Assembly (NCBI GenBank): GCA_020435415.1
Contig: JAGQZQ010000027.1
Coordinates: forward strand, 1 to 37,682
DNA: 37,682 nucleotides
Direction of reading: 5' to 3'
Source of the DNA: Flavobacteriales bacterium
GTDB taxonomy: Bacteria > Bacteroidota > Bacteroidia > JACJYZ01
The notes below the pieces were generated by a model that was given only the letters and a program-made list of their open reading frames with translations, had not been told where the DNA came from and made no database searches. The position numbers were made by a program, and so were the translations under genes. Positions 9,799-14,368 of the stretch are shown here, piece after piece; the first letter of the stretch is position 1, and every line of letters starts with the position of its first letter.

Positions 9799-10266
9799 CT
9801 ACAAACTAAACTCCTGTGCCCATTCCGGAAGTGGTGCCTTCTCCACATCACTCAACATCTTCATGTTTTGTGTGGTCACCCCTTTATCATCGGTACCGAA
9901 GATGCTGATGAAACGGAAGCCATACTTCAGTTCATCCCAGGTATAGGATAAGCGGCTATGTACGGTTTGCGAAAAGGTGTCATCAAAACCGGTGATGGAG
10001 ATCAGAAATTCTACCTGTTGCTTCTCAAAATCCTTTTCTTCCATGCCAAAAAGAGGACTGTCCTCCTCGATGATCAGGTTGAACTTCCACCACTTCATGC
10101 GGATGAGGGCATGGTAAATGCTTACCGCTGTCCACCGCGAAGTCTCGGTCCGCTGGATGTTAAAGGTGCCATCACGGTTGATCAGTCGTGCCCGGAACTC
10201 GCCGGTCCTGGTTCCAAATCCCAGTTCGGGGGATTTTGTGTTTGGTTTCTTAGCAGAGGTCATCAT
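9799..10266 (-). CDS. Inward-rectifier K+ channel (Kir)-like protein lacking the pore
   Basis: 155 residues in an intact frame (ATG 10266 to TAG 9799). The N-terminus is the cytosolic part of a prokaryotic Kir channel: LGFGTRTGEFRARLINRDGT and FNIQR, then the slide helix (VSIYHALIRMKWWKFN). The C-terminal 95 residues match the end of the Kir cytosolic domain: IEEDSPLFGMEEKDFEK, FLISITGFDDTFSQTVHSRL, SYTWDELKYGFRFISIF. Between them, at about residue 63, both transmembrane helices, the TxGYG selectivity filter and the first half of the cytosolic domain are missing; full-length relatives have roughly 300-330 residues. The product cannot be a channel. It is either the outcome of an in-frame internal deletion or an assembly collapse. 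No membrane segment remains. Confidence 0.8.
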   Translation of the reverse strand: MMTSAKKPNTKSPELGFGTRTGEFRARLINRDGTFNIQRTETSRWTAVSIYHALIRMKWWKFNLIIEEDSPLFGMEEKDFEKQQVEFLISITGFDDTFSQTVHSRLSYTWDELKYGFRFISIFGTDDKGVTTQNMKMLSDVEKAPLPEWAQEFSL

Positions 10267-10604: not shown

Positions 10605-11705
10605 CTACGCTTTCACAGCGGTATTCATGATCTCCTCCTGTTTCCGGATGGATTCCTTGTGGATCATCTGGTACATCTGCTTGGTGAAATCCGGACTGAG
10701 GCCAAGAGCCTGGCCTATCTCCATGCGCTTGTTCATGATCTCTTCCCAACGGTTCAGCTGGAGGATGGTCACCTCATTGTCGCGCTTGTACTCACCGATT
10801 TTCTCAGCCACCTTCATCCGGGTGGAGAGCACATGCAGCAGGTCATCATCCAGCTTGTCGATCTCCGCGCGCAGCTGATCCAGTTTGCTTCGGAACTCAA
10901 TGCTTTCATTGGAAGATTTCCGAACGGTGATGGAAGAAAGCAGCTTGCCGAGATCTTCCGGGGTCACCTGTTGTTCCGCATCACTCAATGCTGCACGGGG
11001 TTGGATGTGCGTCTCGATCATCAGTCCGGTCATATCCAGGTCCATTGCCTTCTGGCAAACGTAAGACAGCAGTTCACGGCTTCCGGCGATATGGCTCGGG
11101 TCGCATATCATCGGAAGGTTCGGAAGGGTCCGTCTCATTTCAATCGCCAGCTCCCATTTGGGGACGTTGCGGAACGGGGTTTTCTCGAAAGGAGAGAATC
11201 CCCTGTGGATGGCAGCCAGCTTGGTGATGCCCGCCCCATGGATGCGTTCCAGTGCACCGATCCACAACTGCAGATCAGGGTTGATGGGGTTCTTCACCAT
11301 GACCGGAACGTCCACTCCTTTTAGGGCGTCGGCGATGTTCTGCACGGAGAAAGGGTTGACTGTGGTACGTGCACCCACCCATAGGATGTCGATGCCGTAC
11401 TTCAGACAAAGTTCAACGTGTTCGGCGTTGGCCACCTCGGTGGTGAGCAGCATGCCTGTCTCTTCCTTCACATCCTTGAGCCATTTCAGGCCTTCTTCCC
11501 CCACACCTTCAAAAGAATTGGGGCGGGTACGTGGTTTCCATATGCCGGCGCGGAAAATTTTCACCTTGCCCAGCCGGGCGATGCCGCGTGCGGTGGTCAT
11601 CACCTGGTCGGCATTTTCTGCGCTACATGGTCCTGCTATGATCACCGGTTTCTGGGGATCCGGCATCCAGGTATCAATAGGTTGAATGTTCAATTCTGGC
11701 TTCAT
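10605..11705 (-). CDS. aroF: Bifunctional DAHP synthase / chorismate mutase (type II)
   Basis: 366 residues with two domains. Residues about 1-260 are a type I-beta DAHP synthase, which condenses phosphoenolpyruvate and erythrose 4-phosphate at the entry to the shikimate pathway: IAGPCSAE (23-30), FRAGIWKPRTRPNSFEGVG, KNPINPDLQLWIGALERI, HRGF (168-171), CDPSHIAGSR (201-210). Residues about 270-358 are an AroQ chorismate mutase helix bundle (LRAEIDKLDDDLLHVLSTRM, KVAEKIGEYKRDN). This order, synthase first and mutase at the C-terminus, is the arrangement known in Bacteroidota, where the mutase also serves in feedback control. Its start lies inside pheA (32-bp overlap), so the two are co-translated in one operon controlled by the upstream leader. 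Confidence 0.95.
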   Translation of the reverse strand: MKPELNIQPIDTWMPDPQKPVIIAGPCSAENADQVMTTARGIARLGKVKIFRAGIWKPRTRPNSFEGVGEEGLKWLKDVKEETGMLLTTEVANAEHVELCLKYGIDILWVGARTTVNPFSVQNIADALKGVDVPVMVKNPINPDLQLWIGALERIHGAGITKLAAIHRGFSPFEKTPFRNVPKWELAIEMRRTLPNLPMICDPSHIAGSRELLSYVCQKAMDLDMTGLMIETHIQPRAALSDAEQQVTPEDLGKLLSSITVRKSSNESIEFRSKLDQLRAEIDKLDDDLLHVLSTRMKVAEKIGEYKRDNEVTILQLNRWEEIMNKRMEIGQALGLSPDFTKQMYQMIHKESIRKQEEIMNTAVKA

Positions 11706-12555
11706 CGTTTGTCGTATTTAATAGTTGTTCCAAATTTCCTTTTTTGTATTCTCCCAGCACGGACAAGTGGCTGACGTGTTTCAGTACCTGGTGCATGGCG
11801 TTTTCATAATCCGGGTATGATGCCCACTCCACATCAATGTGGAAGGTGTATTCATTGGGTTGACCCACCACCGGTACCGACTGTATCTTGGTCATGTTGA
11901 TGTGGTGCTGTGTGAAGATATTGAGCACCTGGGCCAGGCTACCCACCTGGTGTCCCAGACGGATGCTTACCGAGGCCTTGTTATGATCGGTGCTTTCTTC
12001 TGCCATGGTGGACAGGATCATGAAGCGGGTGTAATTCTTCTTGTGGGTCTCGATGCCGCGTTCCAGGATATTTAATCCATAGTGTTCGGCTGCATACAAA
12101 CCGGCGATGGCAGCTGCATGCGTATTCTTTTCTTCGGCAATGATGCGCGCGCATTCAGCGGTGTCGTTGTATTCCTGCAATTCCCAGTCGGGGTGGGTGG
12201 CCAGATATTCACCACATTGTCTCAGAGCGATCGGGTGCGACCGGACCACCTTGATGTCCTCCAGCTTCACCCCGGGAAGGGCCATCAGGTTCTGCTGGAT
12301 GTGCAGGTACCTTTCACCGATGATCTTCAGGTGATGATCCTGGATCAGACGGTAGTTGGTGAGCAGACTTCCGGAGAGCGAGTTCTCGATGGCCATCACG
12401 CTGAAGTCCACCTCACCGCTCACCAGTTTCTCACACAGGGTCTTGAAAGATGCGCATGCAATTGTTTCAATGTTATCCCCGAAATACTGATGGGCGACCA
12501 CATCGTGGAACGATGCTGCAACTCCCTGGATCCCTATTTTCTTTTTTGTACTCAT
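11674..12555 (-). CDS. pheA: Prephenate dehydratase
   Basis: 293 residues; converts prephenate to phenylpyruvate, the step committing flux to phenylalanine. The catalytic domain is about residues 6-185, with AIENSLSGS (55-63) and the family's TRF motif at 176-178 (NYTRFMIL). An ACT domain follows (about 195-270). In its ligand site, GSLAQVL replaces the GALV motif and KIQSVP the ESRP motif seen in enteric PheA, so Phe feedback may differ. There is no fused chorismate mutase; that activity is supplied by the next gene. A leader peptide and terminator hairpin lie just upstream (12574-12692), which indicates control by transcription attenuation. Confidence 0.96.
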   Translation of the reverse strand: MSTKKKIGIQGVAASFHDVVAHQYFGDNIETIACASFKTLCEKLVSGEVDFSVMAIENSLSGSLLTNYRLIQDHHLKIIGERYLHIQQNLMALPGVKLEDIKVVRSHPIALRQCGEYLATHPDWELQEYNDTAECARIIAEEKNTHAAAIAGLYAAEHYGLNILERGIETHKKNYTRFMILSTMAEESTDHNKASVSIRLGHQVGSLAQVLNIFTQHHINMTKIQSVPVVGQPNEYTFHIDVEWASYPDYENAMHQVLKHVSHLSVLGEYKKGNLEQLLNTTNDEARIEHSTY

Positions 12556-12573: not shown

Positions 12574-12600
12574 AAAAAAAAAGCCCCGAGTTTTCGGGGC
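12574..12600 (-). terminator. Attenuator terminator in the pheA leader
   Basis: The transcript GCCCCGA-AAAC-TCGGGGC forms a 7-bp perfect stem and is followed by nine T residues, ending 18 nt before the pheA ATG. It therefore sits between the promoter and the first structural gene. Its 5' arm (CCCCG, 12599-12595) can pair instead with CGGGG at 12644-12640 inside the leader peptide coding region, giving an antiterminator. Confidence 0.85.
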
Positions 12601-12632
12601 CTGTAGGTGATGTTTTTTTGCAACGCTTCCTC

Positions 12633-12692
12633 TCAGATTCCCCGGTGGGACCTGTTATAAAAATAAAAGAAGAAGTAGTTGGTCTTTCTCAT
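12633..12692 (-). CDS. Phe/Tyr-rich leader peptide of the pheA operon (pheL-like)
   Basis: A 19-codon frame from ATG 12692 to TGA 12633 encodes MRKTNYFFFYFYNRSHRGI, with seven aromatic codons in a row (Tyr-Phe-Phe-Phe-Tyr-Phe-Tyr). It lies 33 nt before a terminator hairpin and directly upstream of prephenate dehydratase and DAHP synthase. This is the arrangement of a classical ribosome-mediated attenuator. When charged tRNA-Phe or tRNA-Tyr is scarce, a ribosome stalling on this run would block the local hairpin UCCC-ACC-GGGGA (12650-12639). That frees CGGGG to pair with CCCCG of the terminator arm and lets transcription reach pheA. Being so short, it is easily missed by gene callers. Analogy to enterobacterial pheL is by design, not by sequence. 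Confidence 0.85.
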   Translation of the reverse strand: MRKTNYFFFYFYNRSHRGI

Positions 12693-12710: not shown

Positions 12711-12742
12711 CAAAGGAACGAAGGCTTTCCCTTAAATCCAAA
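12711..12742 (-). promoter_or_regulatory. Candidate promoter of the pheA leader operon
   Basis: On the minus strand a TTTG (12742-12739) is followed after 20 bp by TTCCTTTG (12718-12711), one base off the Bacteroidota -7 consensus TAnnTTTG. Transcription would start near 12704, about a dozen nucleotides before the leader peptide ATG. The same 20-bp spacing occurs in the candidate promoter at 35349-35380. Confidence 0.42.
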
Positions 12743-12901
12743 CAATATATCAGTTATTAATAATCTCTTCACGTAAAACAGAATATTGTTTTGGGTAAAC
12801 TGGGATTAGGTGGAGGATTGGTGCGTAAGTCTGTTTTGAGGGCCGTTGATTATTCTGTACTGAAAAGCAGTTTTTTTCTTCGCCGGTATATGCCGTACAC
12901 A

Positions 12902-14368
12902 TTATTCTTCCCATTTCCAGGTCTTCCCAACCACCATTTCTTCTTTGAATCCTTGTCGGATAAAGAATTCCTTCGCCTCATCACTGTTCAGTTTACCTGC
13001 GGGAATGGAGTCGGCATCTGCCAGGGCGTAAAGGGCCATGGCCGTATATCGTGTGCCGTTCACCATCCATGATTTGTCTATCAGATTGAAATCGTCTCCA
13101 TTGGAATGATAGTATTTGTAGATGCTGTCATTCATATTGCTGATCATGCCTAAAACAGGGATTCCTTCAAGCATGAAAGGGAAATGGTCACTGTGCAGTC
13201 CAGACTTCGCATTGCCTTCATTTGAAAAAGTGGAATCAATGGTTTGAATGGTTGTACCGATATGATTGAAGAAATCTTTCATTTCTTCCCGTCCGGACCA
13301 GCTGAAACCTTTTGGATTACCGGACATGTCCAGGTTGATGATGTACCGGAGTTTATCAATCTCGCCGCTGGCGATCATTTGCTGTGCCATATACTTCGAG
13401 CCGAGCAGGCCCTGTTCCTCTCCCATGAACATTACAAATTGGATGGTGCGTTCGGGATGTAGTCCGGCACTTTTGAAGGTACGGGCAATGTCCAGTACGG
13501 TAAAGGATCCGATGCCGTTGTCTATGGCACCGGTGGCAAGGTCCCAGCTGTCCAGGTGTCCGCCGATCAGAATGACCTCCTCAGGTTTTCCGGAACCGCG
13601 AAGGGTAGCCACGACATTTCGTGCTTTGATGATATTGCTGGCATTTTCCATGGCAAGATGGGCAGAGAGTTGCTTACCTTGATTCATCAGATCTTTCAGC
13701 ATTTGTCCATCTTCCCAGGAGATATTGGCGGCAGGAATGGGATTCAGTTCTCCGGTCACGGAGGCGGTGCCGGTAAGCAGAATGTTTCCCTCCACGCGGT
13801 TATAGAGGATCACACCTGCTGCACCAAAATCAATGGCCAGTGCGGTTTTTTCAGAACGATGCAGGTTCTTCTCGGTGGAGTCCTGAGGTTCCAGGCCTAT
13901 ATTGGCCAGGATGATATTTCCGCGAATGGCGTCCCCCAATTTTTTCAGGTCTTTGCGTAATCCGCTCCCTGCAAAGATCAGCTGCCCCTGAACATCGGCA
14001 TGAACCGGGGAATGGGCGAGGGCTACTGTTTTCAGAGAAAATGAGGTGTCGTCAGACATGATGTCCAGGGAAATGGATTTTCGTGCCCAGGCTTCGACCT
14101 CGAAGGGTAGATAGGTAGCATCTTCAAACCCGTACTTCCGGAATTTTTCCAAAACAAAAACCTCAGCTTTTGCCCCATTCTCACTACCGGTGAGTCGGTG
14201 ACCGATGGTGGAGGTGGCCTCCCGGAGATCATCGTATCCCGAGGAGTGAGCCGTCACATTCCGGTTGATATCCGAGAAAATTTCGGAGAGGGGTCTGTTC
14301 GTCGGTGTTTTGGAAGTACAGGAAAAAAGTAACAACGCCGCACATGCTGCGATCAAAATTTTGTTCAT
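12902..14368 (-). CDS. M28 family zinc peptidase, lipoprotein
   Basis: 488 residues. Lipoprotein signal with lipobox LFSC and Cys17, so the enzyme is membrane-anchored outside the cytosol. A PA-type insert occupies roughly residues 120-250. The M28 catalytic domain shows all five metal ligands: His271 (GGHLDSWD), Asp283 (GAIDNGIG), Glu318 with the catalytic Glu317 (FMGEEQG), Asp347 (NLDMSG) and His421 (YYHSNGDD). Family members are aminopeptidases or carboxypeptidases that trim peptides, here most likely for nutrition. The gene is single, with its own upstream region of about 380 bp. Exact substrate preference cannot be read from the sequence. Confidence 0.93.
   Translation of the reverse strand: MNKILIAACAALLLFSCTSKTPTNRPLSEIFSDINRNVTAHSSGYDDLREATSTIGHRLTGSENGAKAEVFVLEKFRKYGFEDATYLPFEVEAWARKSISLDIMSDDTSFSLKTVALAHSPVHADVQGQLIFAGSGLRKDLKKLGDAIRGNIILANIGLEPQDSTEKNLHRSEKTALAIDFGAAGVILYNRVEGNILLTGTASVTGELNPIPAANISWEDGQMLKDLMNQGKQLSAHLAMENASNIIKARNVVATLRGSGKPEEVILIGGHLDSWDLATGAIDNGIGSFTVLDIARTFKSAGLHPERTIQFVMFMGEEQGLLGSKYMAQQMIASGEIDKLRYIINLDMSGNPKGFSWSGREEMKDFFNHIGTTIQTIDSTFSNEGNAKSGLHSDHFPFMLEGIPVLGMISNMNDSIYKYYHSNGDDFNLIDKSWMVNGTRYTAMALYALADADSIPAGKLNSDEAKEFFIRQGFKEEMVVGKTWKWEE

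Follow-up and report, generated by a model that had tools for sequence, protein, structure and literature searches.

The pheA gene of this Flavobacteriales bacterium is preceded by a very short aromatic-rich open reading frame and a hairpin followed by a T-tract, raising the question as to whether the operon is controlled by a leader peptide. We consider it highly probable that the element is a ribosome-mediated transcription attenuator that senses charged tRNA-Phe and tRNA-Tyr jointly. Attenuation using both Phe and Tyr codons had been proposed in a first-pass annotation of this DNA, and comparison with relatives, in which the leader recurs in 22 of 35 groups with compensating changes in its pairings, strongly supports that proposal.

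Leader frame, terminator, and predicted antiterminator

In the window (the whole 37,682-nt stretch of DNA analyzed; all features located below lie on its minus strand), the leader frame MRKTNYFFFYFYNRSHRGI and its stop occupy positions 12633-12692, with an ATG at 12692, 19 codons, and a UGA stop at 12635-12633. Codons 6-12 (12657-12677) read Tyr Phe Phe Phe Tyr Phe Tyr, all of them Phe or Tyr, so that the frame has the run of product amino-acid codons characteristic of a classic attenuator. This run is far above chance: an ATG frame with Phe/Tyr at seven of eight codons arose in none of 5,000 dinucleotide shuffles of the 250-nt region upstream of pheA, and the only other copy of a TWYx7 run (seven Phe/Tyr codons) in the 3.48-Mb genome is in a (TTC)n microsatellite. 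The 19-codon frame, its coordinates, and its seven consecutive aromatic codons are all as first annotated.

An intrinsic terminator, AGGCCCCGAAAACUCGGGGCUU (12574-12602), lies between the leader and the first gene, again as in a classic attenuator. Its predicted hairpin spans 12602-12581 and is followed by nine T residues (12582-12574; nine U in all in the RNA) that end 18 nt upstream of pheA. The 7-bp stem described previously is present, and extends to 9 bp when one G-U and one A-U pair are counted. The 145-nt leader RNA folds with substantially lower energy than shuffled sequences (-37.2 versus -25.7 kcal/mol, z -3.4). Folding also predicts an antiterminator that shares the 5′ arm of the terminator and could be exposed or covered by a ribosome, a third classic feature, seen here by sequence and folding. 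Its 5′ strand, CGGGG..UCUG..AGG (12629-12644), overlaps the last leader codons and the leader stop, and its complementarity to the terminator arm is kept across families; the 3′ strand (12594-12607) includes the terminator 5′ arm GCCCCGA (12600-12594). The core pairing of CGGGG (12644-12640) with CCCCG (12599-12595) is where the first-pass annotation placed it, although the antiterminator proper is longer, adding UCUG (12637-12634) with CAGG (12603-12600) and AGG (12631-12629) with CCU (12607-12605). The whole structure has a predicted energy of about -16 kcal/mol (p = 0.045 against shuffles), similar to that of the terminator hairpin (-15.3 kcal/mol).

The third pairing of the earlier description, UCCC/GGGA as a protector, fares less well. 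It falls within a larger putative hairpin in which a strand CAGGUCCC (12647-12654) would pair with the following GGGGAAUCUG, and this is no better than chance in the window sequence. The protector (1:2) stem scores 0.50 in the window versus 0.60 in shuffles and reaches p ≤ 0.05 in 13 of 54 relatives, in a test that does not discriminate the E. coli controls. The protector stem is thus a possible part only, set aside as an essential one on a window score not above chance in what is a weak test.

The downstream genes are those expected for such a sensor. The pheA gene (11674-12555) encodes a prephenate dehydratase (PF00800) with an ACT match just under the curated cut-off (25.2 versus 27), and its 3′ end is overlapped by a gene for a DAHP synthase-chorismate mutase fusion (10605-11705; PF00793 and PF01817), such that the two are very probably co-transcribed. 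No leader is present directly before tyrA in this genome, where tyrA follows an aminotransferase gene and groEL on a different contig; a tyrA relative occurs in the stretch downstream of pheA at 26 of 54 leader loci. Further along the window, a 155-residue frame at 9799-10266 has a match solely to PF17655, the domain at the C-terminal end of inward rectifier K+ channels, and no channel part was found within the frame.

Conservation and covariation across the class

To sample relatives, upstream DNA was examined in the genomes of the window's class with a PF00800 match (80 of 296), and further named loci were added; a leader was scored as a short frame upstream of pheA with at least five Phe/Tyr in eight codons. 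ATG-start frames of this kind precede pheA in 56 of 86 upstream regions, compared with a mean of 1.7 in shuffles, and none of the control residue sets tried that lack Phe or Tyr exceeded 6 in the same regions. With all start codons and a longer upstream stretch, leaders are found at 57 of 87 loci and in 22 of 35 groups, where groups are family codes, with the window and named MAGs each counted singly, such that some may share a family and independence is incomplete. Three loci of one further family have YFWFY leaders that fall barely below the threshold, yet have terminators. Spacer lengths vary among the leaders. Assignment of the sampled genomes to Bacteroidota is based on named relatives of pheA and on the promoter boxes described below.

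A strong terminator is present at 54 of the 57 loci with a leader and at 6 of the 30 without ([[54,3],[6,24]]; Fisher p 8e-13). Immediately past the final aromatic codon lies a segment complementary to the 5′ arm of the terminator; the mean duplex energy of these segments with their own arms is -12.8 kcal/mol, versus -8.8 kcal/mol when partners are swapped and -5.9 kcal/mol for shuffled segments. With relatedness reduced by taking a single representative per group, the true pairings outdid every one of 2,000 permutations, and did so in all 20 draws (median z about -6.6). The leader segment and the terminator arm covary between groups, since the letters change from group to group but the pairing persists: GGGAC/GUCCC, CGGGG/CCCCG, GAGGC/GCCUC, CAGGA/UCCUG, and GAGAAC/GUUCUC. 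Such compensating changes, together with the recurrence of the aromatic run and hairpins, are the outcome of the comparison of relatives that the first-pass annotation had proposed. Counted from the first base of the final clustered aromatic codon, the start of the complementary segment mostly lies 6-17 nt downstream. A ribosome extends about 12 nt past the codon it is reading (PMC4833913), which fits a segment placed at about a ribosome's reach from that codon. The frame, the terminator, their complementarity, joint conservation, and geometry are thus direct observations.

These patterns bear on two other readings of the locus. First, the hairpin could simply terminate the M28 peptidase gene upstream, with the short frame incidental. 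That gene is co-directional and ends at 12902, about 300 nt before the hairpin, and the closest homologue by pheA sequence (locus L084 of genome G023; 56% identity) has a terminator-like hairpin without a leader. The tracking of strong terminators with the aromatic frame, and the matching of the terminator 5′ arm to the last codons of the leader, nonetheless make this explanation very improbable. Second, the frame could encode a functional small hydrophobic peptide, with attenuation secondary or absent, and the class of peptide is indeed conserved. Only the residue class is kept, however, with Phe and Tyr interchanging freely (193 Phe and 173 Tyr in the 8-codon runs across leaders, Trp being rare at 8; 82 Phe and 79 Tyr at the last three aromatic positions), and the peptide ends vary, tracking the RNA pairing; we regard this reading as having scarcely any likelihood, slightly less than the first.

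Candidate promoters were also located. Upstream of the window leader, a candidate -7 element, TATATTGTTTG (12739-12749), is inferred as a weak form of the TAnnTTTG box of Bacteroidota, and is not an exact match. Exact boxes occur upstream of the relatives' leaders at 3.5 per kb, versus 0.15 per kb in coding DNA, and 27 of 38 begin 21-60 nt ahead of the leader ATG. None of the 57 leader loci has such a box in the 60 nt preceding pheA, compared with 9 of the 30 leaderless loci. No sigma-70 type promoter was found, as expected for Bacteroidota.

The leader is absent altogether from family f12 (L044, L045, L055, L057, and L077), and several of its members have a TAnnTTTG box just 12-15 nt before the pheA start; judged from sequence, this lineage appears either to have lost the attenuator or never to have possessed it. 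Elsewhere in the phylum, among 36 pheA genes from other classes, only 2 have such a leader, which suggests that the Phe/Tyr leader is largely a property of the window's class. The two exceptions, L138 and L159 (MKNNYYTGFGFYYFYLTRPSCRD and MTKNFSTYSPFFYFGYFYFIYPKKGTCMVLR, respectively), possibly reflect transfer. We note that prephenate dehydratase matches themselves are scarce in the class (80 of 296 genomes, versus 102 of 118 in a phylum-wide sample), which may indicate widespread Phe auxotrophy or a sampling effect. As a separate observation, HisG (PF01634) has no match in the 98.8% complete genome of the window and has one in 13 of 14 control genomes; histidine auxotrophy and an assembly gap are both possible.

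Ribosome position and the proposed switch

To model the influence of the ribosome, the RNA up to the terminator loop was folded after removal of the stretch behind the ribosome front edge, a calculation that assumes equilibrium and a truncated RNA. For the window, capture of the terminator arm has a probability of 0.65 in ribosome-free RNA, which rises to 0.95 when a ribosome sits at Tyr12 and falls to 0.13 when it is at the stop codon; the means over 54 loci are 0.76, 0.79, and 0.15, respectively. For the E. coli leaders, the corresponding values are 0.04, 0.71, and 0.00 (pheL), 0.32, 0.71, and 0.00 (trpL), 0.70, 0.86, and 0.00 (thrL), and 0.05, 0.85, and 0.01 (leuL); for hisL (0.00, 0.68, and 0.69) the simplified model does not tell stall and stop apart. 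The modeled stall and stop states of the window leader are thus opposite, as attenuation requires. The model also predicts that most of the Bacteroidota leaders leave the antiterminator exposed without a ribosome, unlike four of the five E. coli leaders. Equilibrium folding of the full-length RNA favors the terminator whatever the ribosome state, for the window and the E. coli controls alike, and because of this the choice between terminator and antiterminator must, under the model, be kinetic.

We infer that the frame is translated, that ribosomes stall within it, and that transcription terminates in response to supply, as follows. When charged tRNA-Phe or tRNA-Tyr is scarce, the leader ribosome would wait at the aromatic run, with its front edge halting just short of the CGGGG..UCUG segment, and the free segment would capture the terminator 5′ arm as it is transcribed, allowing RNA polymerase to continue into pheA and on to the gene for the DAHP synthase-chorismate mutase fusion. 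With both charged tRNAs plentiful, the ribosome would reach the stop codon and cover the CGGGG..UCUG segment, the terminator would form, and transcription would end before pheA. A joint gauge of Phe and Tyr fits an operon containing a Phe-branch enzyme and a first common enzyme joined to chorismate mutase. A use of the same parts in some other switch, either translation attenuation or recognition of the RNA by a protein or small molecule, aided by the leader, is suggested by several relatives in which no more than 10 nt separate the hairpin from the start of pheA, and is nevertheless most improbable, as remote as the functional peptide, given the nine U after the window stem and U-tracts after the hairpin in nearly all relatives, the lack of any riboswitch or T-box match in Rfam at the window leader, and aromatic codons that suit a ribosome sensor.

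For the attenuator itself, a class-wide design can be entertained, rather tentatively and with the odds against it, in which a two-amino-acid sensor has no effective protector, antitermination is the default, and termination occurs only when a ribosome reaches the stop codon. If this were true, blocking translation of the leader would switch the operon on, not off.

Relation to known attenuators

The closest known counterpart is the E. coli pheL-pheA attenuator (Rfam RF01859, Phe_leader), which has a similarly control-codon-rich leader, mutually exclusive antiterminator and terminator, and the same target gene, and which behaves alike in the stall and stop states of the folding model. It differs in having Phe codons only, whereas Phe and Tyr are about equally represented in the window's class of leaders, and in hiding its antiterminator when no ribosome is present, which the window and most relatives do not. 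A full-length match to RF01859 at the window has the lowest E-value among the subthreshold matches, and scores 24 bits against a cut-off of 55; neither the window leader nor those of 14 relatives match any Rfam family at cut-off.

The suggestion that a Bacteroidota attenuator of this type deserves attention holds in part: the Phe/Tyr case is supported by the comparison, but attenuation in Bacteroidota is not new. Attenuation cases in Bacteroidetes/Chlorobi were reportedly mentioned in the 2004 comparative study of Vitreschak et al. (cited in PMC2965389). A Trp leader of the phylum, Bacteroid-trp (RF01692), is described (PMC2864571), and is alike in being a leader-peptide element for aromatic amino-acid synthesis in the same phylum, although with Trp codons and trp genes; the window leader contains no Trp codon and does not match RF01692. 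In Flavobacterium psychrophilum, a transcriptome-based study describes a structured 5′ element before pheA that has no Rfam match and is reported in other Flavobacteriaceae genera, together with clues to leader-peptide attenuation of amino-acid operons (PMC9723704). This is likely the same element as that in the window; the main-text passages of that study that concern it contain no Phe/Tyr codon or pairing analysis.

The kind of regulation is therefore already known, and what the comparison adds is a class-wide two-amino-acid leader with demonstrated covariation, recurring across a Bacteroidota class in which it has barely been described. Leader-peptide attenuation of Phe/Tyr synthesis would then be standard equipment in a large Bacteroidota class, encoded by short genes that reach the threshold of no Rfam family and are likely to be missed in annotation. 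The comparison yields predictions testable at the sequence level, specifying which codons and which pairings matter, and marks lineages lacking the attenuator.

The window's genome also carries a second leader, upstream of trpE (L117, contig G000:C44), with 14 codons (MKNNNNQSWWWMLT) including three for Trp (WWW) and a terminator with nine T downstream; it scores 32.5 bits against Bacteroid-trp, below the cut-off of 49. Taken alongside the pheA leader, this points to attenuation as the probable control of both branches in this organism.
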